Origin: Polymyxa betae | Lineage: Eukaryota; Endomyxa; Phytomyxea; Plasmodiophorida; Plasmodiophoridae | Reading direction: 5' to 3' | Length of the DNA stretch: 64,000 bases | Assembly: GCA_003693705.1 (NCBI GenBank) | Contig: RBZT01000500.1 | Coordinates: 103,725-167,724, forward strand | Shown: positions 29,688 to 51,054 of the stretch, piece after piece | Position numbering within the stretch: the first letter of the stretch is position 1 | Layout of the letters: each line of letters opens with the position of its first letter | Notes under the pieces: generated by a model | Databases searched by the model: none | Told to the model about the DNA's origin: nothing | What the model saw: only the letters and a program-made list of their open reading frames with translations | Translations under genes and position numbers: made by a program

Positions 29688-30419
29688 CTAGTCATCATCG
29701 TCATAATCTTCATCGTCGTGATCGTCTCTGTGATGATGCGTGGAATCCAGCTCACCATGACCCTGCGAGGGTGGTTAGGGTTTAGGACTTCGCAACCACT
29801 ATTTCCGCTTACGTCGTCATGATCGTGTTCGTCATGCGAATGGTGCTCGGCCTCATGATTTTCACTGTGAGCATGGCTCTCCGAGTTCTGATCGTTACCA
29901 GTCACTGCATTCATGAAATTTAACAACACGTGACAACACTTTGAAACAAAGAGAAACCCAATTTCTCGCAATGAACATGGTTAGACCCAATCAGGGCCAT
30001 ATGGATGGAAAGGATGTACCTTGGGCATTGATTTGGGCATTGGTAGTCACAATAACTTTATCCTTAGCAGTACCTTCTTTTTCGTGCCTTCCATCATCCT
30101 ATATATGGTTCAGTAATTAGAGTTAGTCGGGTTAAAGGGAGAGACACCGACCCGATGATATTCGTCGTCATGATCAGCTTCATGTGAATCATGATGATCC
30201 AGATTACTCGGGAAATGGTGATGGCCATGACCATGATGATGGTGATCGTGGTCGCCTTCCTCGTCATCATCGTCCTCTTCGTCCCCGTGATGTCCGAAAT
30301 GGCCTGAAACGATTGAATTGGCGTGAAGGGCGCTCTCAATGAATGGTACCGTAACTCCATGCAGAAGCGCCTAATATTAGAAGTGAAAATATTAAAGCGA
30401 TTGATGTCGTCCTATTCAT
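29688..30419 (-). CDS. Secreted His/Asp-rich protein A
   Basis: Five exons join cleanly in frame (30356-30419, 30152-30303, 30020-30098, 29813-29904, 29688-29762) to give 153 residues. All introns are GT-AG. The product starts with a signal peptide (MNRTTSIALIFSLLILGASAW). A dense acidic block follows (GDEEDDDDEEGDHD), then His clusters (HHHHGHGHHHF). Exon 3 carries a KDKVIVTTNAQINAQ segment resembling the Thr/Ala motif of the secreted proteins at 36265 and 41485, followed by VTGNDQ where those have TATDEH. The C-terminus is again His/Asp-rich. No cysteines in the middle and no membrane segment. Probably binds metal ions (Zn, Cu, Ni, Ca) outside the cell or in the wall; this is inferred from composition. 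I do not recognise a described family. The last intron contains a telomere-like repeat. It converges with the LRR gene. Confidence 0.75.
29771..29788. repeat. Interstitial telomere-like repeat in the last intron of secreted protein A
   Basis: GGTTAGGGTTTAGGAC lies within the 50-bp intron 29763-29812. On the coding (minus) strand it reads CCTAAACCCTAACC, about 15 bases before the AG acceptor. Confidence 0.8.
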
Positions 30420-31554
30420 GATACTGATACCGGGTCCTTTAGCCCGGACAAAGATCCAGTAAATTATAGGTTCGCCGTGCAATAAATTACAAAAATGGCG
30501 ATGAGAACAATCATGAACCGACCGATTCATAGTTGAGTCATATTGGATGAGTCCTGCAACAACTGATTATATAGATTCAGAAAAAAATTCAGTGTAAAAA
30601 TATGAAACTATTTTCATTTCATTTTGCGGTTAGAAACATGACTAGATACGTTACTATCACATGAAATCGTTCACATGAAGTCCAAATCGCCACCACAACG
30701 CATATGACGCTTGTTGATTGTTAGAAAAATGAAAGCATTCGGTCTGCGATCAGCAGGGGCGATTATGGATTCGATTTCCGGATTGGAAATTATCGGCTGT
30801 CTACTGATCATACAAGCTCTATGAATACATCCTATGTGCATCATCAAGCACCGATCTCCAGTCGAATGGTGATAAGAGAGAAGGACGGAAACTGATTCAT
30901 ACTGGACAATAGTGAGTTAAGATCAGCCTTGAACTGACGCTGATATGAACATTTTCATAGGATTGCCAGAAAAAATGCGATAATTGCTGCGAACATTCCG
31001 GCAGATATTCGAATCCGCCATTGTCATATGAAGATGTGTTCGACGATGGATGGTGTGTAACGATCATTTTTACTTGTGCTATCAATAATGGTTTCAGGCA
31101 GCTCACCATTCTAATACTGACTGATGCAAGATTAAACTGGATTCGATCATTCTAGATCGCTGATCTTTCCAACAGGGGGCGCTGTGCTCTAAGCGCGGCA
31201 AGATTGGATTGGATTTCACTAGTTCGTAGATTTTTGGTCAACAGGCGGCGCTGTATCCGAAGCGCAAGGCTGATAGTACTCTGGAGCGCTGCAAGATGAA
31301 TGCCATCGGAGCAGCATGCAGCGGTATCCAGAGCTGAATCTGCAGTGGTTCAGGGCTGTGAACAGCCTCACGTCTTAGGATAAAGATATCAAACATCCAG
31401 AACATTCTGAATGTCGATAAATGAAGGAGGGAGGCGACATGATTTACTGCGTTTATAGAGAGAGGTGGCCGCGCTCCATCTCATTCTCATCTTGGAAGTG
31501 GTGCCCGCCTACTAGCTGCCTATCTGGCCTCATTCTGCAATCATTCCATTCACC
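30420..31554. other. Intergenic, no gene seen; two diverged copies of a short segment near 31160-31260
   Basis: 1.1 kb between the divergent starts of the secreted protein A gene and the SGT gene, so it holds both promoters. Two related stretches of about 60 bp occur in tandem near 31150-31270. Both contain CAACAGG-[CG]-GGCGCTGT followed by AAGCGC. No reading frame was supported. Confidence 0.45.
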
Positions 31555-33160
31555 ATGACGACGTCATCGGCAGAGCTATCTCAGGACCAATGCGATCTCA
31601 TCAGAAGCATCTGCATGTACTTGCAGCAAATCGGTAGGCTGAATACCAGGCTCTCGGTGTCGTGGCCTGATCCCATTCAGGCACGATCAAATCGATCGAC
31701 GCTGATGCCATCGAGGTCGCCATTCAATGCATTAGTACGTCAATGTCAATGTTACGACGAAGCAATAACCGATTCAGGTGATTCGACCGGTGTTGATATC
31801 AGCCAGCCATCAAGCAGATACCTTCCGCCATTAGACGAAATTTTCAGAACGTAACCGATTTCAATCTGGTAGTGAAACATTGATTAAGAGATGTTGGTTA
31901 GAGGCATGACGGTTATTAACTCTCAGAATGGGCATCCAGATGGATTTGAGAGGTTTTTAAAAGCACTCAAAGAGAAAGGATTCTTCGAGGGTCATGCTGA
32001 AGGTAGCCCTGAATATCAAGTCAGGCTGCAGCGCGCTCGTGAGAAATTCTTTGACCGATTTGGTCAAGCGGCTACACACGTCACCGCTGAGCAAGTCCAG
32101 CAGTCAGAGGTACTGAAAATGGAAGGTGAGACTGCTTTCGTCTTGCGGTCTGTCAAGTCGTTGAATTATTGTAGGAAACAGGCTGCTGTCGGGTGGCGAT
32201 ACGAACGGTGCCATTGAAGCATACACCAAAGCGATCACTTTGAACCCGACCAATGCGATTCTGTTTTCAAACCGGGCTGCAGCTTATCAGAAATTGGGAA
32301 ATAATGAACAGACGATCGCCGATTGGTAAATTGACAGCACAACGTTGCTGGCGCTTTCGTTGATCGAGATGGGACAGCCATAGGGCGATCGAGCTCGATT
32401 TCAATTATACAAAAGCGCATTATCGGTGCGGTGTCGCTCATACGAACCTGAATCAGAAAAGCAAAGCTAAAGATTGGTTCGTATTATTGCCTTTGCAATG
32501 CTGGATCAACTCACGCTTCGTATAGCTTTAATCAAGCGCTGGCTACATGCACCGACCAATCGTCGCCGCTTGCTTGCGAGATCCGCGATGCGCTGGCCGC
32601 ATTAGACGTATTTGCAAATCGTCATTGTGGATTGTTTGTTAAGACGAGATGTAGGCACCTTCAGTAAGGTCTTCCAGTTCGGGTGCCGCTCCATTTGACA
32701 TGAGCGCATTACTCAACAACCCGATGGTGCAGCAGATGATGCAAAACCCGGAGCTTATGACTGGCGTAAGCTCGCCCTACTCTTCGTTTTGATCGTTTTG
32801 TGAATATGCTGGCTAGATGTTAAGTAACATGATGGGCGGAATGGGCGGCTCTAACATGGGTGGAATGGGCGGCTCTAATCCATCATCGCCAAGCACCCCT
32901 AATCCAATGCAAATGCTGACTGATCCATCCTCTTTCCGAGATTTCATGAATTCGCCTGCAGTGAAAGGTTACGAACAGGTAAATGGTGAGCATTGAGGCT
33001 TCGCTTTGCTAAACAGGTCGTCCAGGACCCTCAGCTTGGTCCCGTAATTGCTGACCTTCGGGAAAATGGCGTTTCTGCCATCATGAAGCACATGTCAAAC
33101 CCGATGCTGATGGCGAAGCTATCTGCGTTAATGAAAGCCAACAATGAATCTTCTCAGTAA
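31555..33160 (+). CDS. SGTA: Small glutamine-rich TPR co-chaperone (SGT/SGTA)
   Basis: Cytosolic co-chaperone that links Hsp70/Hsp90 to the tail-anchored protein and quality-control pathways. The N-terminal exons give a helical dimerisation-type region (QDQCDLIRSICMYLQQI; PDGFERFLKALKEKGFFEG). The TPR domain follows: a first helix split by an intron (EVLKMEG to NRLLSGGDTNGAIEAYTKAI), then NPTNAILFSNRAAAYQKLGNNEQTIADC and HRAIELDFNYTKAHYRCGVAH. The C-terminal half has NNPMVQQMMQNPELM, a Met/Gly-rich stretch with the unit GGMGGSN duplicated, and a second STI1-like helical segment (SSFRDFMNSPAVKGYEQV...DPQLGPVIADLRENG). Stop 33158-33160. Start at the first ATG, 31555. Introns are 45-60 bp. Confidence 0.88.
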
Positions 33161-33630
33161 ACGTTCTGTTTATGTTCGGTCATAATTAATACAACGGTTA
33201 GAATTGACTGAACTCTGTGTAGCTGCAAGCGTAAATTTTGATTGTGGATTCCAATGGTTTTCTGAACATACACGGTCGGCTTCTGGCTGCAGCTCCTCGA
33301 CATCGTTAGTCTTTCACTTTTTACGCTTGTTCACTATGCGCGTGGTAAAATTGGTCTCTCGACAATACTGGCGAAAATTGCTGAACAATGAAACGCTTCG
33401 TCAGTATTTTGATTGGTTATTCATATGAGTGGCTCCAGAGCAATATTAGGATTCTACTTCATACTTTATTGTACAGTCTGGTGTTTCCAAAGCCGTCATC
33501 GACGACAAATCGAGACAGCTTCAATTTTTAAAGAATGTCGTATGTTATGCTGGAGCGCCAACAACGGTCACATTGAGTCAACAGCATTAAGATCATCTTG
33601 ACTCAGCCAAAACCTCGTCTACGTTGAACT
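33161..33630. other. Intergenic, no gene seen
   Basis: 470 bp between SGT and the secreted protein B gene. Contains the promoter of the latter. Reading frames here are short and show no recognisable domain. Confidence 0.45.
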
Positions 33631-34336
33631 ATGTCAATTCGCGTTCTTTACTTGACTGTCGCTCTTGGTATCCTACTTGGTCTGCCAAGCGCTGATGCCA
33701 AGCGCAGATTTCATCCAGACAGTGATGAAGATATGTTCTCAATGAAGGAACATACCGTAAGACCTGAATCGTAGTCACACTGAGCAAAGCATGACATAAT
33801 CCCAGCGACATGATGAAGACGATGATGATGATGATCATTTCGGTCATGGTATCGACCCAAAAGGCTGGGATGGTTGGGGAGAAGCTGATGACGTATGCTG
33901 AGCGATGCCTATTGGCATTCATCAACCATGTTGATAATGCTGTTTAGATGCTACATCAGCGACACCTGAAGCATCTCCATGACAGAGGTCATAACAAACA
34001 TCACGATGATGATGACGACGACGACCATCATAAAAACGATTGGGTAGTAGTAGCGTTTCTGAATTGAAACGATATGCTAAATAAGACGTTTTCAAGTTAC
34101 GTTGGGGAGAGGAAGATGAGCGTGATGATAAGGACCATAATCACCATCATGATCACGGCGAGGTTGGTTCTAAGTTGTGTTCCAACCGGTGATCTAAAAA
34201 AATGATACAGTTCGAAACACCGTTTGATGACGAACACGGTCATCACGGCGATCATCATCACGACAATAAACATCATCACGACGATAAACCTCATCACAAG
34301 CATGGGCATGGGCATGGGCACGGCCACCGCCATTAA
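33631..34336 (+). CDS. Secreted His/Asp-rich protein B
   Basis: Five exons (33631-33756, 33806-33892, 33948-34043, 34097-34162, 34211-34336) join with all four introns in phase 0 and give 166 residues. The signal peptide is MSIRVLYLTVALGILLGLPSADA. Each following exon encodes its own charged module: Asp run plus HFGHG; HHDDDDDDDHHK; EEDERDDKDHNHHHDHGE; and a last exon with HGHHGDHHHDN and a terminal alternating His-Gly stretch. No cysteines. Composition and a lone signal peptide suggest an extracellular metal-binding or polyelectrolyte protein. It lacks the Thr/Ala motif of proteins A, C and E. No described family recognised. It converges with the Elongin A gene. Confidence 0.75.
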
Positions 34337-34445
34337 ATTCTCTGCCAGCTTGGCCATTAGTTTCGTCAGCTACATGCTAAATTAAACAAGGTTTTTTCAA
34401 TCAAAGAGAGAGATGTGTTTTACTTACATAAATACAAAGTTTTTT

Positions 34446-35438
34446 CTATCGTTTAAATTTTCTTTCCATCTTTAGCCTTTTCTTAGCAGGCTCTAAAATT
34501 TTCGCTAATCGACCATTGCTTTTGGTCATGGTCGGCGTCGCCGCAGTTGGCTTTGCCGCTTTCGTACCAGGCTGATCACGGGCCCGAATGATCGTCTTCC
34601 TGACGATATTAGCTTCTGGTTTTATCCTTTTCACTGAGGCCTGAAGCTTGGCGCTTTCTGCTTGCTTGTTTTTTTCAGCAAGACGGGCAGCGTATTCTTG
34701 CGCTTTTTTCTCGCGATCCTGGAGAACGTTTTTGTAGAACTCACGCCAGAAGCTTACGGGCATACTCTGCACTCGAATTGTGAATGATATTGAAGAAATG
34801 ACTAAGCAATTACATACATCAGCGTCTTCAATAGCGGCGTATTGTTCAGGCAGATCCAGCCTTGCTACCCTTCTCCAGCATATGTCCAGATCTTGGACCA
34901 GTTCGGGATTGAGTCTTTCAAGACGCATCAGATCGGTTGCTTTAGCGTTTTGAGCAATCTGTAACAAAATAGGCGTTGGAAGGACACAGTCAAGGCGCCC
35001 CAATCTGGAAATGTTGTGACGAAGAACGGTTAAGCAAAGTGACTGAAGTGAAGAAACGCGTCCTGTCGCTACCAATGGTTCGTTGAATGTTATTGATTCG
35101 CGCCTTTTCTGAGGAGTCTCTTCGGGTGCTACACAACATTGATATTAGCGCCTTATAATCGCTGTGAAGATAGTAATACGTTTTGCCACGACTGCTTTCC
35201 AAATCGTAATCAGCTTTTTAGCCCGATCTTTCAGGGCACGATTTTCAAGCTTATTCCTGGCTGAATTTACAATTTTCCCCGCCTTGGTCGTTCGCAGCAG
35301 CTCGGTCGTCATGGTGATTCGCTCCAGATCCAGCAATGCAGCCGCGATTTGGGTGCCGCATTGTTCCTGGTTAGTCTCCGGGCTGGTTAGGTCCCGAAGA
35401 CGCTGGCACGCGCTGGTGATTCGATCGATCAGCGACAT
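34446..35438 (-). CDS. ELOA: Elongin A (TFIIS N-domain plus BC-box protein)
   Basis: Transcription elongation factor subunit and substrate receptor of the Elongin BC ubiquitin ligase. The first exon (ATG at 35438) encodes a TFIIS N-terminal (LW) domain: four helices ending LKDRAKKLITIWKAVVA. The second part begins with the BC box SLQSLCLTVLRHN, which fits the S-L-x3-C-x3-L consensus for Elongin B/C binding. The Elongin A domain follows (LGRLDCVLPTPILLQIAQNAKATDLMRLERLNPELVQDLDICWRR) with an intron of about 54 bp near 34760-34820, then VSFWREFYKNVLQDREKKAQEYAARL. The tail is Lys/Arg-rich with a nuclear-localisation character (AKKRLKMERKFKR). Shorter than the animal protein because the middle region is reduced. 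A longer start would cross the assembly gap at 35618. Confidence 0.85.
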
Positions 35439-36264
35439 GCTAAATGGCGAGTTCGAGTCAGGAGGGGCACTGGATCGCCGGGCTGCGTCTCCAGTCAGAT
35501 TACCACCAAGTGGACAATTTTCGCCTGTCGGTGACTGATCGGTCGATGGGGCTGCGCCTGGCCAGGAATTTCTTTCTCGAAAGTTCGAGTTGCTGGGGGG
35601 ATCTGGGGCGCCTATATCNNGGGGGGGGGGTTGGCGATGAGAGACGATGATCAGCACTTCGACCATTCGTCAAATCTATCGTCGACCGACACGTGTCAAG
35701 TCGTTCAACGATCGACACGTGCAGCGCGCTGATTGATTTCGTTTGATTTCACTCTCACTCCCGACCATCTTTCTGGGGTTTTGATCATACCTTAGTGAAG
35801 GTGACGCATTGCAATGCTATCTTAATGTGATTCTGCTTCGACACCGGATCTCTCTTTCTCAACTGGTTTTTACTCTTGTCTTCCCTTGAATTGTTATTTA
35901 TAAGCTTATAGCACGGTAGTCAGCGGTAAAGCTGACGTATCGAATAACAAAGGCAATGTTATCCTTGTTGGAGAGCTGCTGACAAAACTTCTACATAGCG
36001 ATTCAACGCTTTGTTCTCTATTCGGTGATCGTTCACCCGTTATTTGCTTTACACAGCTTTATCGCAGAGCGAGGATGGAGTCACCGAAATTCCGATTTTG
36101 ACTCATTTGGTTCTGCCGATGTCCTCCGACTATATGAGTCACGTGTTCTGAGTCAATTACGGTCGGTGCTGAATCGCTGATTCAGGCGAAATTCGTCATT
36201 CTTATATTTCCACTCGATCGAAAGGCATATTATCGTCAAGTTTTCATATCGACGCCTATAAACC
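35439..36264. other. Divergent promoter region with an assembly gap
   Basis: Lies between the divergent starts of Elongin A and secreted protein C. Contains two undetermined bases (35618-35619) followed by a run of G, so the local sequence is unreliable. The pentamer-rich words CGACACGTG occur twice (about 35690 and 35713). No gene seen. Confidence 0.5.
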
Positions 36265-36879
36265 ATGAAGATCTTACCTATCTTGACGTTGGTTTTGATC
36301 GTCGTCTCGCTGGTACAAGCTCAGCGGCATGACGCGTGGAATCGCGCCCAAGGAACCCGAGCGCAGATCGCCAACCATCACGATGAGCATGTAAACGCCA
36401 ATAACAAGGATAAAGGCGAAAACATCATGCAGCACAAGGGCAAAGATAACACCGATGTTGAAACGGCTGCTTCTTTGACTGCCACCGTGACGGCTACCGA
36501 TGAACACAGCGACCAATACTCGCACCACATGGACAATTCTCACGAGTTATCGCATGCTGACGAACAGCTGCGGTTGATCGAAGCAGCCAGTGCTCACCAG
36601 AACATGGAGCACGATGAAGACGAAGCCGCTGAACATTTCGATGATGACCATCACCACGGCCACCACGAGCCTCTGGATGGTACTCATGGAGGGCACCACG
36701 ACCACCATGATCATCACCAAGGCGGCCTCCACGAAGTTGATCACCACCCCGAAGAGTTCAACCGGTTCGAGTTCCACGAACCTCATGATGACCGCCACGG
36801 ACACGATGGTATGCATGGTCACGATGGTTTTCATGGCCACGACGGTATTCATGGTCACGATGATCATCACTTTCATTAA
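36265..36879 (+). CDS. Secreted His/Asp-rich protein C
   Basis: Single exon, 204 residues, with signal peptide MKILPILTLVLIVVSLVQA. The mature N-terminal third is Asn/Gln/Lys/His-rich. At residues 71-81 is the motif LTATVTATDEH, shared almost exactly with protein E (41485) and loosely with protein A. The second half is an acidic His-rich domain with HHDHHDHH, then a near-perfect five-residue repeat HGHDG followed by M, F or I near the C-terminus (36820-36870), ending DDHHFH. No Cys or membrane segment. Metal binding is likely from composition. The single exon contrasts with the five-exon proteins A and B. Unknown family. Confidence 0.8.
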   Translation: MKILPILTLVLIVVSLVQAQRHDAWNRAQGTRAQIANHHDEHVNANNKDKGENIMQHKGKDNTDVETAASLTATVTATDEHSDQYSHHMDNSHELSHADEQLRLIEAASAHQNMEHDEDEAAEHFDDDHHHGHHEPLDGTHGGHHDHHDHHQGGLHEVDHHPEEFNRFEFHEPHDDRHGHDGMHGHDGFHGHDGIHGHDDHHFH

Positions 36880-38685
36880 ACTAAACGATCCTGCCCGAGG
36901 TTTTTCGGACACCGATTCCTTTTATGATAAACCGATCTAATTTCCTCTCATATCGTTCCATTTGTTTTGTCTTTGCAATTCCGCGTGAAATCACTGAAAT
37001 TCACTGAGACCGATTTAGTTTCATTAAGACATGCATGCGGCAGAAATTCAAAACGGCAGCTCAGCAATGAATTAGGCTAGGTGCACGAGAGCCCCATGAC
37101 CGATCTCTGCACTTTGCTAACCAAACAGTTTTTAACAGGACCCTTGGCATGATCGTACTCATATCGGAACCGTTATAGAACATTATGCTGTTGACCAGCG
37201 AGATTTGCATTTCAACTTTTCGAATGGGTTGGAAGCACTGGACAGCAAAAGAAGCCATATAATCTCCTAGCATTCCAGTCGAAAGGTTTGCCCTACGCCA
37301 AGTACACTGAAAGATTGGGCGTGTCGTCGAAGTAGCCATTCGAGGCCTGAAGAACCATTACGCCCTCAAGCGACAACATGAATGAGATCCACAAAGCCTC
37401 ATAGTGCTGTGTATCAAGAGGCCGCTCCCACCTATTCTGCTTCCAGTTTGACGATTGATTTCTCATTCGATTTGTGTGTTTGTGACCTATTAGGCCTCAT
37501 ACACGATCTTTGCGGAAATGACAAGCCATTGAGAATCTGTTGCCGGCATCGTGTTTATCTGCTTAAGCTGCTCACAGTTGGGGATTTTGTGTGCAGTGCG
37601 GTTACATGGATTACACAAGCATTGGGTCTTCTGATCAATGCCGTTTCGCACCTGCCAGCGTTGACTCGATGCAAAGTTGCAGGATCTCATCGTGTGCTGG
37701 CCATCTTGCAGTATCTGGTAAATGCCGTGAAGTTGCTTAGAAGTTTAAACCAATACCTTTAGTATTGCCAAAACGTTTTGATGGTTTTGAATTGTACAAT
37801 ATTCATTGCCGACTATTTATATGTTTATTTCTACCTAGTCAGGTTAATACATTGATCATCAGATTTTAAGACTAATGGCGTCTAATCTGTGATTCTGGTT
37901 TACAGAATCATTTTGAAATGCAATAGGCAGGCGGATAATCCCAGAATTTTTGAGAAAGAGCACTGTGCTGTCTATTCTATATCGCCTTCGCTGCTCAGTT
38001 GGATTGCTTTCCGGCTTGCCTGGGATCCAGAATGCTCGAGTTCACGACTTGTGAATGTAGCATTCTCTCTGGTCGATGCATAGCTTGCTACGATAAAGAG
38101 AAAATATCGAAAACCTAACAAGATGCTACATCATTAAAAGCTCTCTCTTTCAACTGATCAAACAGAAGCCCCAAAGCGATGTCAATTGTCAACCAAGCGA
38201 AGCGAAACGAACAATATGTTTTTTTGACAAAGTTGTTCATTTCAACAATCTCGTTTGGTGCTATCTTTTCTCAATTGACTAAACGATTCCAGATTTGGAT
38301 CATAAAAGCGCTAGTAATCTGATGCTATCGAAAGTGTATTCTGGCAACGCCGGCTGGCATGATTATTCGGGCAGGCGAGAATGCATTGCAGTCCGAGCTG
38401 TATTTGCTTCTAATTAAGATGCATATTATTGTGCTCGAAAGTCCCTGGTGGAAAACGCTTACTCAGAAACTCGCTACTTCTTCTCGATGTTGATTAACAG
38501 ATTGATTAGATAGACTGTAATTTGCAAGCAATATTACAGTCAATTTATCAGCGGATATACAATTATATTAAGAAGGTTAGAACACTCGCTGATGTGTTCA
38601 AGTTCTTAGCTATGCCTAAGAATCTTTGCAGAAGCGTGTTCAGTGGAAGCACAGACCCTGAACAGCTTCCAAAATTGACAAAGGG
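36880..38685. other. 1.8 kb without a supported gene
   Basis: Contains scattered open stretches, such as a 126-codon frame at 37382-37762 and a 64-codon frame at 37889-38083. Neither shows a domain I recognise, and no frame-preserving intron links them convincingly. The region could hold a decayed gene. The right end is the 3' side of the HSF gene on the minus strand. Confidence 0.4.
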
Positions 38686-39519
38686 TCAGGCCGATTGGCT
38701 CTGGAGGATTGTCGGGCGAAACCTTTTCTGGCCGCTGAATGGGATATTGTGGTTATCCTCGGTTGGTTTGGTAAGAAGCGATGAGGGTGATTGCGACTTC
38801 ATCTCCGATTCCCTCCTTTGGGTTTTATGGACCTTAACGAATCCACCATGCATCACATTCTCATCGTCGGCTAAGTTCTTTGCAGTTTGTTTCATTTCCT
38901 CGACGGAGGCTTGAAGTTTGGCGTTTTCCTCTTCGAGTTCCTTGATCCTCTGTTCGAGTTCCTGAATGTGACGTCTCTGGGCTGAGCCCTTTTCATCGGT
39001 TTTACGAACGATCAGCGGCAGCATGTTTGGGTGACCTCTGATGAAGTATGGATGACGGAACTCAACCTGGGTCGCCGAGATTGTGGTCTTGGAGAACCCA
39101 TAGAAATGCATCTGACGAACGAAGCTGCTGAAGTTCGAAGTGTTGAAGTACAGGTGCAGCAGCTCGGACTCGAGCCGGTTTGAATCATAGACGATGAACT
39201 TATCTCCCTCGGGGTTCCAACCGATGATATCTTCTTGTCCTGATTCGACAAGCTTGTAGATTTTCTGCACGAAAGTTGGCGTTTCCATGACGAATTTGTA
39301 ATTCTGCAGCGCATCGGTTGCCATGGATGGACTTATCGGTGATGAAGGTGACCTTTCGGGTAATAGGCTTTCTGAGTGATAACCCATAGCTGCTGATGAC
39401 TTTGAACTCTTCAAATCTGGACCCGTTATTAAACGGAAAACGAACATGGAGTAAAAGGACCAAGCCAGTAAGGCGCGCCTCTCAGAGCCCGAATTAGGCG
39501 CGCAGAAGATGAGCAACAA
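38686..39519 (-). CDS. HSF-type DNA-binding protein, copy 1
   Basis: Single exon of up to 277 residues. The winged-helix HSF DNA-binding domain is complete: METPTFVQKIYKLVE, IIGWNPEGDKFIVYD, LLHLYFNTSNFSSFVRQMHFYGFSK (recognition helix) and FIRGHPNMLPLIVRK. It is followed by a coiled coil (HIQELEQRIKELEEENAKLQASVEEM), shorter than the usual HSF HR-A/B trimerisation region, and a C-terminal tail ending FSGQKRFRPTILQSQ. The recognition helix keeps the SFVRQ core but reads MHFYGFSK rather than the common LNxYGFxK. The start is uncertain: in-frame ATGs at 39387 and 39324 are plausible because the first 44 codons do not look conserved. Paralogues lie at 43311 and 45454. Confidence 0.82.
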   Translation of the reverse strand: MLLIFCAPNSGSERRALLAWSFYSMFVFRLITGPDLKSSKSSAAMGYHSESLLPERSPSSPISPSMATDALQNYKFVMETPTFVQKIYKLVESGQEDIIGWNPEGDKFIVYDSNRLESELLHLYFNTSNFSSFVRQMHFYGFSKTTISATQVEFRHPYFIRGHPNMLPLIVRKTDEKGSAQRRHIQELEQRIKELEEENAKLQASVEEMKQTAKNLADDENVMHGGFVKVHKTQRRESEMKSQSPSSLLTKPTEDNHNIPFSGQKRFRPTILQSQSA

Positions 39520-40058: not shown

Positions 40059-40664
40059 TCAGTTATATTCGTCCTTCTTCTTTCCGTATTCATCATACTT
40101 CTCCTCCTTGCACTCTGAGGTCTTGCACTCTTTAGGCTTACATTCGCTAGTCTTGTTGCATTTGTCATATTCTTTGCCGTAATCGTCCTTGGAGTACTCA
40201 TCGCCATACTTCTTATCTTTGGAGTACTCCTCGCCATACTTCTTGTCTTTGGAGTAATCGTCATACTTCTTGTCTTTGTACTCCTCGCCGTACTTCTTGT
40301 CTTTGGAGTAATCGTCATACTTCTTGTCTTTGTACTCCTCGTCATACTTCTTGTCTTTGTACTCCTCGCCATACTTCTTGTCTTTGTACTCATCGCCATA
40401 CTTCTTATCTTCGGAGTACTCACCGCCATACTTCTTGTCTTTGGAGTATTCTTCTCCGTAGTTTTCAGGATACGCCTTTTCTTCGTCTTTATAAGGCTGG
40501 CACTTGTACTATAGACAAATATTGAGACGATAGATTTGCAGAGAGCTCTGACTTACATCTTTCTCACAATCAGAGGGTGGTCCACAACAATCTTTTTTCT
40601 TGCCACCATGGGCAGCAACGAAGGCCACCAAGACAGCTGCGAGGATAAAGGATAGCTTCATCAT
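40059..40664 (-). CDS. Secreted Tyr/Lys/Glu-repeat protein D with terminal cysteine clusters
   Basis: Two exons (40557-40664 and 40059-40508, joined in phase 0 over a 48-bp GT-AG intron) give 185 residues. Signal peptide MMKLSFILAAVLVAFVAAHG is followed by a Cys-rich head (KKKDCCGPPSDCEKD, then YKCQPY). The central part consists of about nine repeats of the unit DKKYGEEY plus SK, EYK or a similar spacer. The tail has Cys pairs (DKCNKTSECKPKECKTSECKEEKY) and a short charged end. The Tyr-Lys repetition recalls cross-linkable adhesive or wall proteins (tyrosine cross-linking), but this is only compositional. It has almost no His, unlike its neighbours. No family recognised. Divergent from the secreted protein E gene, 820 bp away. 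Confidence 0.78.
40178..40455 (-). repeat. Coding tandem repeat (DKKYGEEY units)
   Basis: About nine imperfect 24-33 bp units within exon 2 of the secreted Tyr/Lys-repeat protein. Individual units are nearly identical in DNA as well as protein (core AAAGACAAGAAGTATGGCGA), suggesting recent slippage or gene conversion. Confidence 0.85.
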
Positions 40665-41484: not shown

Positions 41485-42444
41485 ATGTCTGGCACAGTAC
41501 CGCTTTTCTTGCTGGTGCTGTTGCTGCTGACATCGGGGGTGAACGTCGCCTCCGCCGAACGATTTATCTATCCGCCGTCACATAACAACGAAGCAGTAGC
41601 TGTGGACCCAATTCTGGTCGCACAGCCGTATGAGGTTGTCCCCCATGGACCTCTTAGTATGAGCGTCGCATATAATGTGCCTCCTCAACATCATCACCAT
41701 AACGAAGTATATGATGGTGTAGTTTATAGACCATCCGCACACGAGGGAGATTTGCCTCCTAATCAGCACCATCATGTTGTTTCTACTCGAGTCGATGAAT
41801 ATGGGCGACCGGTTCCACCTCCTACGGCTAAGCCGGTTGATCCCGATCCGCCTTCATATCTAGATCATCCACAGGCTCATGAAATGGAGACAAGACCAAG
41901 AGCGCATGCAGTTGACCATGCAGGTCAAGCAGCGACTGAGGAAACTGAACCAGTATATGACGATGAACCATTTCTACACAGAGCTTTAGACAAGAGTCAG
42001 GCTTCGACGGATGTTACTAATGCTCTCGATCATGACCTAGGTGAACTGAATGTCAAAGAATCTGGAGACGATTTAACAGTCCATGTCGGCAAGAACAAAG
42101 TTAAGACTGAAACTGTCGCCACGATTACAGCCACGATCACAGCCACCGACGAGCATGAAGATTCTTACATCAATATTCATCGTAATGCTCATGAAGCATC
42201 CGCTGGTCACGAACACGATCATCTCGATGGAAAGACAGTGTATCTTGATGGTGCTAAGCACGACGCTCTGGACCAGCAAGGTGGCGCCGAAGTCGTACCG
42301 GCTGAGACTCCGCCTCCAGATCTGAGCTTCTTGCAAGATGTCGAGGTGCTGAAGGTCCTGTTTCCATGGTTGGAGAAGCACTCAAATGGGCAAGAGCCGG
42401 AACAGTCGCCCCCAGAAACATTGGACCATGTAGCACTGGCGTAA
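41485..42444 (+). CDS. Secreted His/Pro/Asp-rich protein E
   Basis: Single exon, 319 residues. Signal peptide MSGTVPLFLLVLLLLTSGVNVASA. The first half is Pro-, His- and Tyr-rich (PPQHHHHNEVY, NQHHHVVS, PVPPPTAKPVDPDPPSY). At residues 213-224 is TITATITATDEH, the motif shared with protein C (36265) and in altered form with protein A (29688). It is preceded by KNKVKTETVA, the counterpart of the charged-then-Thr/Ala lead-in in the other two. A GHEHDHLDG segment follows. The tail has a hydrophobic LSFLQDVEVLKVLFPWLEKH stretch that looks like a helix, unlike the other members. No Cys. Longest member of the set. Function unknown; extracellular location inferred. Confidence 0.8.
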   Translation: MSGTVPLFLLVLLLLTSGVNVASAERFIYPPSHNNEAVAVDPILVAQPYEVVPHGPLSMSVAYNVPPQHHHHNEVYDGVVYRPSAHEGDLPPNQHHHVVSTRVDEYGRPVPPPTAKPVDPDPPSYLDHPQAHEMETRPRAHAVDHAGQAATEETEPVYDDEPFLHRALDKSQASTDVTNALDHDLGELNVKESGDDLTVHVGKNKVKTETVATITATITATDEHEDSYINIHRNAHEASAGHEHDHLDGKTVYLDGAKHDALDQQGGAEVVPAETPPPDLSFLQDVEVLKVLFPWLEKHSNGQEPEQSPPETLDHVALA

Positions 42445-43310: not shown

Positions 43311-44231
43311 CTAATTGCTCTGGACGATGGTGGGACGGAACCGTTTCTGGCCATTGAATGGTATGTTGGACGAGATCTCATCCGGGATTGCCGTAAGCTG
43401 ACAGGATAGACGGGGCATCGGCCGATTCACAGCTTGAGGTCTGGGTCTATAGCAAACGAATCCAGACGCTTCGACTTTGTCTTGGACTGCAACGCTTTGA
43501 TTAACAGAAACTCTGGAAATCGTAGCACGAAGTTGGGCGTTCTCTTGCTCGAGTACTTGGATTCTTTCTTCTAATTCCATAATGTGGCGCTTCTGGGCAG
43601 AACCCGTCTCGTTTGTTTTGCGGACGATCAATGGCAGCATATTGGGGCGACCTCGAATAAAGCATGGGTGTCGGAACTCAACCCGAGTAGCAGATGATGT
43701 TGTCTTAGAAAACCGATAGAAATGCAGTTGTCGAATGAAACTGCTGAAATTCGAATGATTGAAATACAGCGGCAGCAGCTCTTTCTGCAGGCGATTGGAA
43801 TCATAAACGATGAACTTATCACCATCAGGACCCCAGCCGATAACATCGTTGTCCGATTCGACCAACTTGTAGACTTTCTGGACGAACATCGGCGTCTCCA
43901 TGACAAGCTGGTAATTCTCCAGGATTTCTGTCGGTATTGAAGGGCGGAATGGAAAAGAGCGATGCTTTTCTGCAAATGACCGGGCGGAGCAGCTGCTCAG
44001 GTGAGTCATTGGCATACAAGAGTTCCGGTCTTGGCAGCCAACAGATAGCATCATGATCCTAAACAAGGTGCCGATTCTACCAATCACAGGCGCCTTTCTC
44101 GCCAAGATGGTCTGGCGGAGCCGGCGCAATTTAGAGCGCAATGAGATCTCTGACTTTGTAAATAAATTAGGGCTGGATGTCATATATGGACTGCTGATAA
44201 CAGCCGACCCGAAACAATAGGGCGCTGACAC
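43311..44231 (-). CDS. HSF-type DNA-binding protein, copy 2
   Basis: Single exon of up to 306 residues, paralogous to 38686-39519 and 45454-46200. The HSF domain is complete (METPMFVQKVYKLVE, VIGWGPDGDKFIVYD, LLPLYFNHSNFSSFIRQLHFYRFSK, FIRGRPNMLPLIVRK). Note YRFSK where the copies and most HSFs have YGF: the Gly after the recognition helix is replaced by Arg. A short coiled coil follows (HIMELEERIQVLEQENAQLRA). The tail ends NIPFNGQKRFRPTIVQSN, matching the other copies. The start is uncertain; an in-frame Met-Met near 44054 may be the true start, because the first 59 residues look unlike the rest. Confidence 0.8.
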   Translation of the reverse strand: MSAPYCFGSAVISSPYMTSSPNLFTKSEISLRSKLRRLRQTILARKAPVIGRIGTLFRIMMLSVGCQDRNSCMPMTHLSSCSARSFAEKHRSFPFRPSIPTEILENYQLVMETPMFVQKVYKLVESDNDVIGWGPDGDKFIVYDSNRLQKELLPLYFNHSNFSSFIRQLHFYRFSKTTSSATRVEFRHPCFIRGRPNMLPLIVRKTNETGSAQKRHIMELEERIQVLEQENAQLRATISRVSVNQSVAVQDKVEASGFVCYRPRPQAVNRPMPRLSCQLTAIPDEISSNIPFNGQKRFRPTIVQSN

Positions 44232-45453
44232 ATATATGGTTTTTGTTACTTCCTTGTCAAGGTGTCATGCCGATATCAGCTAGCCATTCGATGGGAAGCT
44301 TAAGTGACTACCGTTTAAACATAAGCGAATAAAAGTTATCACCAATGCCTTGACGTAGAATTATACCTGGGATACTTAGGTTTGTGTAACAATCGAAATC
44401 GACTCGCTTCAGAAGCAAGGCGGACTGGATTAATTGTAGAATGGGTTAATGGGATTGGCTGGACATGGGCAACTCGGTTTCTCTCGTTTCTGAGTCTAGG
44501 GTTTCAGGGTTTGAGGGGCTTGAGGGGTGCGGCCTGTGCTGCGCGGCTGCCCCTTCCCGATGCAGCCCGTTAAATTGACACTTTCCAGCCACCTCAGTGG
44601 ACATGGTCATAATAACAACATTCGTCTCTAGAAGCAGGCGGTGACGTTTTAAACTTGCTGTAGCCGCATGCGCCAGGCATCGATTTAAAGTGCAGCCGAC
44701 TCCCTGCTCCAGAATGACAATCTAAACCTAAAGCTTCAATGGCGACCAGTGTAATTGACGCCGGCTGGACATGAGCGGCCAGATTTTGCTCGTAAGCTGT
44801 TCAGGTGGAAGAAGCTATATCTTAAGCGATTATCTTCGGCGTCACAAGGTGTTGCCTATTAAACGAATCGTTAGGCTTGACATGGTATAATCAGATAGCA
44901 CCGTTTGTTGGTGATGTGAAAGTCCCTATAAATCTTACGTTCATTTCCAGTTAAGGTTACTAGGAAAAGCAGCCATTCCATCTCCAGTTTGAAACTTCGC
45001 CATTCCTACTTCTGTGTAGATCGTTCGATTTCATAGCTGGAGCGATGCCCTGCCTAACAATAAGGAGATTCCACAGCTTCGTGCTCATAGCTACCAGAAT
45101 TCTCGTGACATCCATGAACAAATGATGTCTTATAGGCAGCATTCGCCGGCTTGTGATGGGGAGGGGGTATTGAATTTCCAAGCTGATATCGCGAATCCGG
45201 TCGCTGTTGTTCGTAGACAACGTCAGTCTCCAACAACATCATTGATCAACGTTGAATCTGTAATGGCTAGTTTTTGTTTACAGTGCTGAGCTCGCATTCA
45301 GGTCTGACTATTCAAAACAATTTGTTCGTTACGCTTTTGTTCGTGAAGTTTAAAACGATCGGATTATTGGCTGGATATCTGACGCGATGCATAATCTATA
45401 GGTCTTCCTCAAGGCAATCTATTGGTTGGCTTGATGGAGAAACTTATTAGCTG
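44232..45453. other. Divergent region between two HSF-type genes, no gene seen
   Basis: 1.2 kb containing the presumed promoters of HSF copies 2 and 3. Near 44496-44518 is a degenerate TTTAGGG-like stretch (CTAGGGTTTCAGGGTTTGAGGGG). A 96-codon open frame without an ATG (about 45020-45290, plus) has no known similarity that I can see. Confidence 0.45.
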
Positions 45454-46200
45454 ATGACCTCTTTGGGATGCGATGATTTTCACTGTTTCATTGGATTGAT
45501 CTCAAAGCGACATTCGCTTAGCCCAAATGAGTCACCGCCGCATTCGGCTCACTTCCGAAAGATGCATCCTACTTTGAATGCATTCGAGAACTACCAGGTC
45601 GTCATGGAGACCCCTATTTTCGTCCAGAAATTGTTTAAACTTGTGGAATCCGGTGAGGACATTATCGGTTGGAGGCCGAATGGCGATACGTTTATTGTTC
45701 ATGATTCCGATCGATTGCAAAATGAGCTGCTCCCATTATACTTCAAGCTTTCGAAGTTCAACAGCTTTGTTCGTCAGCTGCATTTCTATGGATTCTCCAA
45801 AACGACACTGTCGAGTTCTCTGATCGAATTCAGTCACCCGTTCTTCATCAAAAATCGTCCAGATATGTTAGCCTTGATTGTTCGGAAAACGAACGAGAAT
45901 GGCAATGCTCAAAAGCGCCATATTCAAGAGCTAAACGAAAGGATACAAAAGCTTGAACAAGAAAATGCCCTACTTCGTGCAAGAGTCGACGTGCTGTCTA
46001 AAACTTCCCGACCACTCGCTGACCAAGCGAAACCTGTTTTAAAACCCTGCAATAGTAGTTCACCTAAGTCTCAGGTGAGTATGAGTGACCAGTCGTCAGC
46101 CTTCTCAGCTTTGCTTTTGGCGCTACCGGGACAAAATCTGGCCAACAGCGCGTTCAAAGCTCAAAAACGGTTTCGTTCATTGGTCGTCCAAAGCCATTGA
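45454..46200 (+). CDS. HSF-type DNA-binding protein, copy 3
   Basis: Single exon, 248 residues; the shortest and most regular of the three. The HSF domain spans residues 46-146 (METPIFVQKLFKLVE, IIGWRPNGDTFIVHD, LLPLYFKLSKFNSFVRQLHFYGFSK, FIKNRPDMLALIVRK). A coiled coil at about 155-185 (HIQELNERIQKLEQENALLRA) is followed by a Ser-rich region and the shared tail NSAFKAQKRFRSLVVQSH. An internal Met (residue 37) just before the domain could also be the start. Probably a nuclear transcription factor; target elements unknown. Divergent from copy 2. Confidence 0.82.
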   Translation: MTSLGCDDFHCFIGLISKRHSLSPNESPPHSAHFRKMHPTLNAFENYQVVMETPIFVQKLFKLVESGEDIIGWRPNGDTFIVHDSDRLQNELLPLYFKLSKFNSFVRQLHFYGFSKTTLSSSLIEFSHPFFIKNRPDMLALIVRKTNENGNAQKRHIQELNERIQKLEQENALLRARVDVLSKTSRPLADQAKPVLKPCNSSSPKSQVSMSDQSSAFSALLLALPGQNLANSAFKAQKRFRSLVVQSH

Positions 46201-46807
46201 GATTGAATGCCATTCTTCGTTTTGGGACATTTTCGACTTCATATGTCTAATGTGCGACAACTTGTAATCACTCGTAAACGCCTTCCTCTTCTTTCTGAAA
46301 ACAACACTGTCATTCTCTTTTTTCTAGAATTGAGTTTGAGCACCATCAAGGCATGTAATTAAACTGATTGCTTTGAAGTGGATTGTAATTTCTGTAACAC
46401 TCAAATAGGCTCCGTCATTTCAATTAGTGAAACATTTCAGTATGTAGTTGAGCGTCATTTTTCATTGGGATTCAAATTAAAAATCCAAAGGAAAAGTGCG
46501 ATGACGAGCACCATCGATTGGTCGGCTCCTCAACGACCGCACGAGCAACCGGCCAGTTCAGTCAAGCATCCTTGCTAAGAATCAAATGTAGCATTGATGT
46601 TTAGATCGGCCGGTATTTCCTTCACTCCTGTAACTTTTTGTTCAAAGATGTAATCTGCGAAACCAAGAGCGAAGGTTTAACGTTTCATGTATGGGCGGAT
46701 AGGGCGTCTGTCGTCTGCTCACACCCAGACCTCCATCTGCTCGTGTCATCGTTCATGTCTGACAATATCCCTGCTTAGTGTCGTCTCATCGTAGCTGTTG
46801 TTTGTGT
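46201..46807. other. Intergenic, no gene seen
   Basis: About 600 bp upstream of RAB3GAP1; presumably its promoter. Nothing recognisable. Confidence 0.45.
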
Positions 46808-49511
46808 ATGTCGGCGGCGTCCTGCCTATCAGCCGATCCCGATGCTGATTCCGATGATATTTTCGAAATCGAGGACTATTACACCGCCTCGGATCTTGAA
46901 GGGTTGCTTTTTATTGGTATTTTGCTATCCTTCTGACCCCTTACAGGCTAATCGTTGTGTTCGAAAAACTTCTGAAGGAATGGAGACCGCTTATTCAAGA
47001 CAAAATCGGGCGACGAACGACAATATCTCGCGGCGAAATCTCTGTAGAAGTCGAGATTATCATTCCCGGGACTGCAGAAGCAGACCCTGATCATCCGATT
47101 GCTTTGCTTGAACTTCCAGTTCATATCAGCTTGGTTCCCCATATCACAACCAGCGTTGGAAGCGAGGCCAGATATGTGCTTTCAGCCGCCTGTATTGCTG
47201 CGTATTCGGTTGGTATCGACGTCCCGTTTATCGCTCCTTGCGACGAGTCACTGTGGACTGGGCGATCCTTAACGTCTCGCCATCAGGTCTTTCAACCGAC
47301 TCTTGTCATTTTCACGTCATTTGACAAATGTATCAGGTGGAAGTTACGGAATGGGATATTCCTGAGCGATTGACGAACCTTTCTGGAATATTATCGTTAT
47401 TTTATGATCTAACTGAGCGGTCGCCGCCAAAACAGCTTCCAACGATTACTGTTGAGTACGCCTACGACTACGACCAGTTCGATATCGATGGTATGGTGTC
47501 CCAAAATCTTCGTACGAATAAGAGCTTGGCCGGTTCCGCCTTGGAATGGGGCTGTAGAGAGAAGCAACGTTTGGTAATGCATCTGTTGGCTCGCTGGAGC
47601 CCCTTCCCTGAAGGAACGTTCACAAGTAGCAGTACCCTCACCGATCTAAACCCTGAAGCTGCTCCGATTTGGAAATTACATTGTCATCTAGGTTAGATCT
47701 TGTATTTGTTTTTTAATTTAAAAATAATGAGTTTCCTTTAAGATTTACATTTAACTGCTGTAAAATGTTGTGTCTTTTCTTATGAGAAACTTTAGCACCT
47801 GGCTCTAAATTTCGTCTCGTCTCCAATGTGAAACGGTTCTTATCGACATGTTCCGCCCTTTCCGATTACTCGACCCTGGAAGCTATCACACGACGCGACC
47901 ACACTTTTGCTCCATCTTTTATGATTCAAGAACAAATTCGTGATGTATTCCGCAGCCATGATTCGGTGCTTTATAGCACTCCTAGAACTAATTCTCCCAC
48001 CAATTCCTGCCCGTTCCAATCATTATTGTCCAGTCTGGTTTTGGCAATGATGCAACAATCTCCTCATGAACCTTACAGAATTGCTCAGCTCTTTGTCGCA
48101 TTTGTTGCCGAACTGCAACGTTATTGGGATGAGGGTCTGTATTCATCATATAATCACCTGAATATGGCTAATAATGCCTTAGGCCACCCGCTTCCCGGGC
48201 TATTAAGTGATATAGAAGCGGCGACTCCCGATCTGAATTGCTGCCTGCTTCATCAAAAGCTGCAAGTTCTGAATCAATGCATCCAGCTACGAACGGTTGC
48301 AGTCGATCGCGGCGCCCAGTTGATATCTCCCGTTGTTGAGCGAGCTAAGCATTGGGCTGATTATGACTATGACGATTTTGAAGATGGCCTTGAAGAATCC
48401 GATCAAGCTACCAACACTGCTAGCAATGCAGAGCAATCGCAGGACGCCGAGCCTGAAGGGATTAATTACGATATCACATTACCAGACGTCTATCTACTCA
48501 ACGGGAAGGCGAAAATGCATGTTCCAATAACATTGGAATCTCCATTACTAACTGAAGATGAGGTAATGAGCATTGTGCTATCGGGTCTTCAAACTATCAA
48601 TTTTGTGATCAGATTCAAGAGCAGCATGAGATTTTAGCAGGTCTTGGGACAGATCATGCATCAAGTACAGTTCGTGCCGAGCTGCAATCGTCATCGCTGC
48701 TTTCAGATATGTCGGCTTTCAAAGCCGCCAATCCCGGGGCAGAGATTGGCGATTTTGTGCGATGGTCAGTTTACATTGATTTCTGCAGAATTCTCACGAG
48801 TTGGTGCAGGTATAGTCCAAATGATTGGATAGATGGAAAAGGTCTTTCCAAACGAATGTCGGGCAGCGATAATCTCTGGAAACGCTGCTGGGCCCGAGCA
48901 GCACCATGTCCCGCTTCACGACAAACGCCATTATTCGATTATGTGGCTCAGGGAGAGCGCATCCTCGATTATTTCAGGACCATCACACCATCAGCGCTAA
49001 TGGAGCAAATCTCTGTTATTGCCATCGTCAATGCAGCATCGGTTATTGCCAGGGCGTTTCCTAATGTGGATGACTTTCCATCTGCCAAAAGCTCTGTCGA
49101 ATCAATGTTCCAGAACGCTAATTACGATGTGATCTTATCTCGAGTATTCGCTCATTCGCATTTCATGATTAACCATTAATCTGGTCATTTTAGATCGAAC
49201 ACGTTGAACAAATCGCAGAGCTTGTAGCAAGATTATCTGGAGGTGTTTTCAAACCATCTGAAATTGATGACATTATCCGCAATGGTACTGCAAATATTGA
49301 ATTCGGGAGAGAACGAGTAATTTCTTTAATGCATGAAAGGGCGAGGTCGCTGGGCTATCCAGATCGTCAGCTTTACATGGTTTCAGCTAAAGACTGCAAC
49401 GATAGCACTTTATATATTGCTGTGCAATTAGATGGCGGGACTCTGATAACAGTTAACGATCGATCTGTGCCATCGCAGATGATTTTCTGCTCAACTTTGC
49501 CCGTTAATTAG
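46808..49511 (+). CDS. RAB3GAP1: Rab3 GTPase-activating protein catalytic subunit (RAB3GAP1)
   Basis: Catalytic subunit of the Rab3GAP complex, which acts as GAP for Rab3 and, with the non-catalytic subunit, as exchange factor for Rab18 at ER and lipid droplets. The first exon encodes DDDIFEIEDYYTASDLE, the family N-terminal motif. Later exons give LLKEWRPLIQD, PFIAPCDESLWTG, EWDIPERLTNLSGILSLFYDL, FVAFVAELQRYWDEG, and DLNCCLLHQKLQVLNQCI. Next come an acidic insert, SAFKAANPGAEIGDFVRW and CPASRQTPLFD, which are the catalytic-region blocks. I resolved a 48-bp intron at about 47286-47333; others lie near 46905, 47700-47795, 48630 and 48815. The last exon ends FCSTLPVN at 49511. Length is near 800 residues, shorter than the human protein. 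Confidence 0.9.
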
Positions 49512-50415
49512 TCGTTACTCAAATTTCTGGTTGAGTCCTTCGCAATCTTTATCAAGGTTTCGAGTCAATGAGCCTTAATAACCTCAGCTGCTCCTACCTC
49601 CATATACAGTAAATTGTCTTAATGCCACGCCAATATCAGAGTTTTCCAACAAGGGTTTATTTTGCAGTTAATCTATTATTCTGCTAATCGCGCCTTGGTC
49701 ACTATGTCTATGGGAACCGAAGAGGTGCTGCTTTGATTAACATCGATCATTGATTGGTGATTGTGATCGTTGCTTATTTCTCAATCGAGCGACCTGTTGC
49801 CTGTTTTGAGTAAAGCAACGATGCAAGCGTTTTGATGCAGAACAGAGAGAGTTAAACAGCTACAAAGGATTCGATGTTTGTTAAACTGAAACTCAGTTGA
49901 ATACACCTCGATGAAATACTGTATTGCTTAGCTGCGTTGCGGTTGCCTCGCTAATTGCCAAACACAACATTTTGGCCTCAAACCTTAGGAATACACGCTT
50001 GAGCAATGTTTACCAATGCAACGATGTAGAGTTTTAAAGCAAGAAGCTATCGCGAATATTTGATCGACAGCATGTTCGATTCCAACAACTTTCATGTTGG
50101 CCCAACTCTATCCTTCATCCTATCTTGTCTGTAATCGCTCACATCTCCCCAGGAATATATAACTATCAAATGAGAACATTTTATGAGACCATTTACATGC
50201 GACGGGAGCAGCGTCAGCTTTACAAACAGCTTTCGTTGATTGCTCCTTTTGACAAGGAATGAATCATCATCTACACCTCGATGACTCATTTGTTCGAGTC
50301 ATGAATCAACGTTTGGAATGACAATATTGTTTCGCTAGCTCGTTGTTCATCATATTTCTATTAGTCGCAGAACTTCAATATCCCTCGATCTAATATTTGT
50401 AACTACCACAACCTA
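49512..50415. other. Intergenic, no gene seen
   Basis: 900 bp of AT-rich sequence between RAB3GAP1 and secreted protein F. Holds the promoter of the latter. No gene supported. Confidence 0.5.
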
Positions 50416-51054
50416 ATGAAAACGTTCCTAGTTGCCGCCTTAGCATTGGTCGGTGTGACCCAGGGCGACCGCCGTATGAACGGTTTCGACGATCATCATG
50501 GCGACCATCTCGTCCATGAATCCCGAATAGACCCGATCGACGTCGGGCATCACCGAACCGTTCCTGATTATATGGGACACGAAGACCGTTTCGATGGGCA
50601 CCGAACAAGCGAGCACCATGACCCAATCCATGACAAGATCCTGCCGCAGGACGTTCTTGAGCACCCTCTTGGAGGCGCTAAGTACGAGGGCGTCCACAAA
50701 GCCGTTAAAGAAGACAAGGGTGTCTGGCATGATGGCCACGATGGATGGCACGGCGATCATGGACATGGCGATCACGGCTACCACGGCGATCACGGCTACC
50801 ATGGCGATCACGGTGACCATGGCGATTACGAACATGGTGATCACGATGGATGGCATGGACATGGCTATGAGCACGGCCATAATGATCATGGTCATGATGG
50901 TTATGAACACGGACACGACCTGCACGCCAATGATTTCTTTGATGGAGTTCATGGATTCCACGGTCATGGCCGGCATGGCGACGACCACCACGAGGACGGC
51001 GTTCGAAAGTCGCTCGAGCACGATGATATCCCTCGCTATCATGGATATCACTAA
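50416..51054 (+). CDS. Secreted His/Gly/Asp-rich protein F
   Basis: Single exon, 212 residues. Signal peptide MKTFLVAALALVGVTQG. The first 100 residues are mixed, with many His and Asp. The middle (about 50740-50920) is a quasi-repetitive array of H-G-D-H-G-Y/D and H-G-H units (for example HGYHGDHGYHGDHGDHGDY), and the C-terminal part has HGFHGHGRHGDDHHED. No Cys or membrane helix. The H-G-x repeat resembles the HGHDG repeat of protein C (36265), but there is no Thr/Ala motif. Likely an extracellular metal-binding protein by composition. It also resembles histidine-rich glycoprotein-like low-complexity proteins, so homology should not be assumed from composition alone. Confidence 0.78.
   Translation: MKTFLVAALALVGVTQGDRRMNGFDDHHGDHLVHESRIDPIDVGHHRTVPDYMGHEDRFDGHRTSEHHDPIHDKILPQDVLEHPLGGAKYEGVHKAVKEDKGVWHDGHDGWHGDHGHGDHGYHGDHGYHGDHGDHGDYEHGDHDGWHGHGYEHGHNDHGHDGYEHGHDLHANDFFDGVHGFHGHGRHGDDHHEDGVRKSLEHDDIPRYHGYH

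Follow-up and report, generated by a model that had tools for sequence, protein, structure and literature searches.

An apparently undescribed family of secreted-looking histidine- and aspartate-rich proteins in the plasmodiophorid Polymyxa betae

Three of five secreted-looking, histidine-rich genes in a 64,000-nucleotide stretch of the Polymyxa betae genome (the window; GenBank assembly GCA_003693705.1, contig RBZT01000500.1, positions 103,725 to 167,724) belong to one real family of paralogues, which is apparently undescribed. These three genes (A, C and E; type I) have in common a core of about 50 residues, KGxDKSxTxTxAxLTATxxAxDxHxDSYSHxHDNAHE. The remaining two, B and F, resemble them in composition only; either they are not related or divergence may have erased any recognisable kinship. 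A preliminary description of the window had placed all five in a single family. This holds for A, C and E by virtue of the core, but not for B and F, which scored negatively for the core in all 15 profile runs and for which no relatives were found in the searches made.

Re-reading of the window DNA (G+C content 47.4%, 44–54% per 2 kb) returned exactly the coordinates and exon counts first proposed for the five genes. All introns, four in A (46–115 bases) and four in B (48–55 bases), have GT and AG ends, and their shortness is consistent with the average of 60 bases given for Plasmodiophora brassicae in the accessible part of PMC4471660. The exons of gene B were joined solely on the basis of GT-AG sites and an unbroken His/Asp composition. 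The N-terminus is strongly hydrophobic in each protein, with a best 11-residue hydropathy of 2.55–3.29 (within residues 1–32) as compared to at most 1.61 elsewhere, a pattern typical of a signal-peptide-like start. After the putative cleavage sites, which were placed by eye, His accounts for 23.0% of residues in A, 25.2% in B, 22.2% in C and 22.4% in F. Gene E reaches 8.8%. All five are compatible with the proposed build of a putative signal peptide and a His/Asp/Glu-rich region, E being only weakly His-rich. In none of the five does His outnumber Asp plus Glu. Many HxH, HH and HxxxH pairs are present in A, B, C and F, and simple repeats in B, C and F. Cysteine is absent from A, B and F (computed) and from C and E (by reading), and none of the five has the several paired cysteines of Cys-rich apoplastic effectors.

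This composition exceeds what is expected by chance. On the 167.7-kb contig that contains the window (C216 in our numbering), a six-frame count, antisense shadows included, gave 29 segments, each 30 codons long, in which His occurred 6 or more times and His, Asp and Glu together made up 45% or more. None appeared in any of 15 order-2 Markov controls. Both His codons are in use (CAC/CAT 26/15 in C, 8/18 in E and 22/22 in F), so no single expanded trinucleotide lies behind the His richness.

The core was searched for in the window's own genome (24.4 Mb, 541 contigs), the only genome searched whole; shared composition may contribute part of the scores. With E as the query, the core was detected at C216:12435, C216:13563 and C483:7865 and in gene C (E-values 3.8e-7 to 5.8e-6), and there was a weak match at C257:10162 (E 0.017). 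A public protein containing the gene A sequence (P0002, described below) matched C257:10156-10506 (4.7e-11) and, weakly, C216:1480-1943 (0.04–0.26), and the spliced protein from the 34-kb region of C257 matched C483:7.7k, C216:12.3k and E (2.7e-6 to 2.3e-4). Allowing up to two mismatches, a degenerate 27-base core pattern matched 17 times and its control 11 times; all three zero-mismatch matches and two of the three one-mismatch matches fall in core genes. In all, the core is present in nine genes on three contigs: A, C, E, C216:1.1k, C216:12.3k, C216:13.4k, C483:7.7k, C257:34.2k and C257:10.3k. Split gene models were made by hand, as was the trimming of the cores, and four cores (A, C216:1k and the two C257 genes) were also spliced by hand. 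As the preliminary description had anticipated, the family defined by A, C and E leads to further members in the same species, here six more genes. Its idea of a purely local expansion does not survive, given the spread over three contigs and the presence of a second conserved family (below).

Leave-one-out profiles recovered 10 of 10 cores, the nine above and one from P. brassicae, at 43.4–85.8 bits, whereas 2,000 shuffles of each core never exceeded 13.2. The left-out scores of A, C and E were 50.6, 53.2 and 85.8 bits (best of 2,000 shuffles 8.8, 11.4 and 9.3), and A still scored 22.6 bits, versus 8.8 for its best shuffle, when its two closest relatives were also left out. Five other His-rich negatives scored below zero, as did B and F. 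Over the inner 38 codons, the three pairs among C216:12k, C216:13k and C483:7k gave nonsynonymous divergence (dN) of 0.046–0.12 and synonymous divergence (dS) of 0.96–2.37, showing purifying selection on the predicted core among these three close paralogues. Six of the remaining seven pairs were saturated at synonymous sites, and C483:7k with E gave dN 0.48 and dS 2.11. Profile recovery together with dN far below dS indicates that the core is a selected protein segment. The segment common to C and E reads LTATVTATDEHSDQYSH / TITATITATDEHEDSYI. Outside the core the tails align poorly, and the rapid divergence suggested at the outset is borne out in what is a diverging family.

Type I extends to a second genus. 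P0003 of P. brassicae is 44% identical to E (110 of 248 aligned columns), and the two have in common VDE[YF]GRP, a near-identical core and C-terminal PPPDLSFLQDVEVLKVLFP. P0003 is the E orthologue; its NCBI name, Tetratricopeptide repeat protein 38, is unsupported (0 Pfam families). In the case of gene A, the last 155 residues of P0002 are letter-identical to the spliced gene model and are preceded by 37 residues of upstream open frame. P0002 derives from a 1,055-base contig whose source is coded 'lgn', which was taken to mean assembled public reads. Because this contig is intronless it is most simply a transcript, and the identity would then be the best sign of gene A splicing and expression; possibly P0002 is instead a splice-aware prediction on genomic DNA. 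P0001 (136 residues) is 93% identical to gene C. No exact match to B, C, E or F was found in the protein searches, in which the query for F was residues 1–127 only.

Other secreted-looking His-rich genes on neighbouring contigs are without the core and have in common a mature N-terminus, GDxxxxVxxGDGHVDN (type II), together with a tail of the same kind as that of type I. A profile of three type II proteins matched seven public proteins, namely A0A0H5QQ93 of Spongospora, PBTT_05948 and PBTT_08747 of P. brassicae (no paper was found under these three names) and four contig-derived proteins, one of them identical to C483:5533-5922. P0004, from an 'lgn'-type source, is identical to this gene; the gene is single-exon, and the identity is therefore uninformative on transcription. 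The motif is present in 10 of 10 aligned rows (nine distinct proteins) with 13 invariant columns, mostly AGD....V..GDGH.DN. None of the type II genes read is identical to the Spongospora protein. By reading, GDxxxxVxxGDGH[VI]DN is absent from A, B, C and E. Gene F was considered as a diverged type II member (GDRRMNGFDDHHGDH looks alike) and rejected: the type II N-terminal model left it unreported, and reported 2,874 of 3,000 same-letter shuffles. Pfam gave no support to an EF-hand or dockerin reading of GDGHVDN, none of the 10 type II rows matching a family at E 0.01. The two families also bear on whether the His-rich parts are functionless products of low-complexity drift in otherwise trivial secreted proteins. 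B and F, which are without detectable relatives, and the simple repeats of B, C and F would fit such drift, but His-rich tails occur in two separate conserved families, in type II across three species, and we consider this explanation very unlikely.

Table 1. Coordinates of His-rich genes, cores and loci. Genes A to F and their cores are in window positions, all others in contig positions.
Feature	Position	Strand	Exons	Length	Remarks
Gene A	29688..30419	minus	5: 30350-30419, 30152-30303, 30020-30098, 29813-29904, 29688-29762	155 residues	type I
Core of A	29813..30098	minus	spans exons 3 and 4, split by intron 3		EGTAKDKVIVTTNAQINAQ / VTGNDQNSESHAHSENHEAE
Gene B	33631..34336	plus	5: 33631-33756, 33806-33892, 33948-34043, 34097-34162, 34211-34336	166 residues	without core; neither module
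Gene C	36265..36879	plus	1	204 residues	type I; secreted-looking; GHD repeats in His-rich tail
Core of C	36403..36546	plus			...KGKDNTDVETAASLTATVTATDEHSDQYSHHMDNSHE
Gene E	41485..42444	plus	1	319 residues	type I; P. brassicae orthologue P0003
Core of E	42052..42195	plus			...HVGKNKVKTETVATITATITATDEHEDSYINIHRNAHE
Gene F	50416..51054	plus	1	212 residues	Gly/His/Asp tail with GDHGYH repeats; without core; neither module
Type II locus	C257:31287-31703				
Type II locus	C483:28454-28837				
Type II locus	C483:5533-5922		1		
Type II locus	C483:4114-4353				interrupted frame
Type II locus	C483:92046-92369				counted from search match alone
Type II locus	C461 from ~25827				spliced by eye; looser motif GNIELEVEHGDGHIDH
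His-rich secreted-looking locus	C216:8209-8547				neither module
His-rich secreted-looking locus	C483:18060-18647				neither module

Plasmodiophorids, which include the agents of clubroot and powdery scab and the vectors of beet viruses, are obligate parasites that persist in soil as resting spores. With type I in P. betae and P. brassicae, and type II also in Spongospora, the two families provide candidates, defined by sequence, for proteins of the wall, of adhesion or of metal handling, and the core and type II signatures allow unnamed or misnamed plasmodiophorid proteins to be annotated. Our preferred reading, which is tentative and which we hold at somewhat short of an even chance, is that they are secreted matrix proteins of the parasite surface or wall that have no cysteine, are largely disordered and bind metals. 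A type I protein would consist of a signal peptide, the conserved core and a fast-diverging His/Asp/Glu-rich polyampholyte that is probably mostly disordered. The core, or the N-terminal module in type II, would anchor the protein at the parasite surface or in the cyst or resting-spore wall. The His/Asp tails would bind divalent metals (Zn, Cu, Ni) and could be crosslinked or condensed by metal together with a pH shift across pH 5–7, such that metal binding and self-association would change between the pH of the plant vacuole or apoplast and that of neutral compartments.

Calculated net charge for A, B, C and F goes from −7 to +14 at pH 5 to −24 to −37 at pH 7.2, a shift of 29.9–40.5 units, which together with the many potential metal sites suggests secreted pH-responsive polyampholytes. 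Constraint on the core, tails that mainly keep their composition and an E core that has barely changed between genera favour a role at the wall or surface. The walls of plasmodiophorid resting spores contain chitin according to the accessible part of PMC4471660. AlphaFold gave E a mean predicted local distance difference test score (pLDDT) of 50.1, with 207 of 319 residues below 50, and a type II protein a mean of 58.0, with 75 of 156 residues below 50. In the type II model, confidence is best in two helices, the signal helix and one at the C-terminus, and two short strands around GDGH are modelled at lower confidence; Foldseek returned 0 matches to this model in the PDB. Low pLDDT values are compatible with disorder.

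Several points weigh against the matrix-protein reading. The alignments behind the AlphaFold models were very shallow (5 and 7 sequences), and low pLDDT is for this reason weak evidence of disorder. Pfam identified no known membrane-anchor or wall-binding domain in the five window proteins. The member with a known orthologue, E, is the one with 8.8% His, and metal binding was perhaps not the ancestral role. Metal binding, location and every functional step are inferred from the sequences.

No Pfam family was found above cut-off for any of the five window proteins, nor any NCBIfam match for six type I proteins including A, C and E, in agreement with the early remark that they fit no named family. 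A collagen repeat in C reached 13.4 bits versus a cut-off of 27.2. A sequence search of the PDB gave one weak match for the core (E 0.28) and none for type II. No description of type I or type II proteins was found in the literature searched, the scope of which did not extend to subscription papers and supplementary tables. A His-rich secreted family is not mentioned in the accessible parts of the P. brassicae genome papers PMC4471660 and PMC4815078, or in those of PMC8595600 (effectors), PMC6823432 (genome architecture) and PMC12503489 (2025 secretome). The accessible part of the last gives 26% of the low-confidence secretome as disordered, and type I and II proteins would be expected in that set; they are likely already listed somewhere as unnamed secreted proteins.

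Biochemically, this apparently undescribed family would be of a kind already known. The Nereis jaw protein NVJP-1 and the squid beak proteins are metal-hardened or coacervating His-rich structural proteins. Likened by description, they resemble the window proteins in being secreted and His/Gly-rich, with Tyr/Gly/His repeats as in F, and differ in that Asp/Glu is as common as His in the window proteins and that types I and II have conserved modules. The HRP2-type proteins of Plasmodium are also secreted, His/Asp-rich parasite proteins, whereas type I has a conserved non-repetitive core.

The fungal zincophore Pra1 and the streptococcal His-triad proteins point to a different mechanism, secreted His-rich metal capture; none of the five window proteins matches a Pfam family above cut-off. 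By this mechanism they would be soluble metal buffers or scavengers at the host-parasite interface, capturing Zn, Cu or Fe for uptake or detoxifying it in a zincophore-like manner. The wealth of His pairs in A, B, C and F (HxH, HH, HxxxH), the secreted-looking starts and the obligate intracellular parasitism of plasmodiophorids (accessible part of PMC4815078) agree with such a role, which we regard as unlikely yet quite conceivable. Against it, conservation lies in the Ser/Thr/Asp-rich core and not in the His tail, and the small number of window proteins scanned included no metal transporter next to these genes. The families provide a means of testing the importance of metal availability for plasmodiophorid parasites.

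These proteins could alternatively be host-directed effectors, small, secreted, fast-diversifying and lineage-specific, that act in or around plant cells. They are secreted-looking, partly grouped on C216 and divergent outside the core, and every named match was plasmodiophorid in the two protein searches that gave matches, one of which scored only the best 7,995 candidates. This is nonetheless rather unlikely: the E core is nearly identical across genera, unlike arms-race effectors, and neither cysteines nor a fold were found. A third role is suggested by the accessible part of PMC4471660, in which genes for the biosynthesis of His, Trp and Thr are reported to be missing from both P. brassicae and S. 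subterranea. Where His biosynthesis genes are lacking, His-rich secretory proteins could bank His as a His/nitrogen store of spores. His contents of up to about 25% would suit a store, but a conserved core would be needless for it, Asp plus Glu equals or exceeds His in all five proteins, and E is His-poor; we give this role hardly any weight.

Grouping of the His-rich genes on C216 is suggestive. Nine loci lie in two groups, at 1–14 kb and 133–155 kb, about 120 kb apart. Under uniform placement this widest gap has P 5.5e-5 or 8e-5 in two estimates, and the gap left by the six core genes has P 0.0027; the tests were chosen post hoc after the data had been seen. A tenth His-rich segment, C216:68868-68996 (minus), has no signal-like start by eye; when it is counted with the nine, P becomes 0.067. 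Mean nearest-neighbour distance gave P 0.0135 (nine), 0.50 (ten) and 0.022 (six core genes). Genome-wide, HxHxHxH gave 75 matches versus 9 in the control, which merged to 44 loci, with 4 neighbours within 20 kb versus 1.5 expected, which is not significant clustering (P 0.057). Four of the 38 such loci outside the three contigs were read: by eye, C461 is type II-like, C409 and C74 have no secreted frame, and C322:70800-72200 (L056) encodes a Cys-rich repeat protein with a His/Gly/Glu-rich stretch that is unrelated to types I and II. HxHxHxH is a poor proxy for the family.

The start of C216 (reversed) and the start of C483 overlap by 95 bases at 97.9% within a Pro/Ser/Glu-coding repeat. The C216 and C483 groups may consequently be one, and the repeat could also produce the overlap by accident. 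A more far-reaching form of the matrix-protein reading, which we think improbable, would be a toolkit private to plasmodiophorids, in which gene clusters encode proteins joining a docking module to a metal- and pH-responsive His/Asp polyampholyte, and a wall is built or hardened by metal-triggered condensation. Such genes might lie in a single large cluster centred on a gene for a repeat-rich secreted protein, with an adhesive or the resting-spore wall as the product.

The repeats at these contig starts (C216:1-1100 and C483:1-900) code for PSEEPSAEPTSAAP. Beside them lie secreted-looking Cys-rich segments, LCKAIDVRxTDxxCxxNCNxNPSFC, without a Pfam match. A telomeric location was rejected, as no telomere array was present at the ends of C216 and C257 or the start of C483, only scattered telomere-like words.

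Within the window, a two-exon secreted-looking gene lies between C and E (40059-40664, minus), with about nine 27-base units, the Lys/Tyr/Asp/Gly repeat DKKYGDEYSK, few cysteines and no Pfam family at cut-off. Three similar frames of heat-shock-factor-type appearance lie within 7.5 kb among the His-rich genes; the one at 45454-46200 (plus) matches the heat-shock-factor DNA-binding domain in a domain scan, and those at 38686-39447 (minus) and 43311-44183 (minus) were likened to it by eye. A frame at 51966-52706 (minus) matches the bacterial capsule-synthesis family PGA_cap, and a secreted-looking CAP (PR-1-like) protein is encoded at 10886-11617 (minus).

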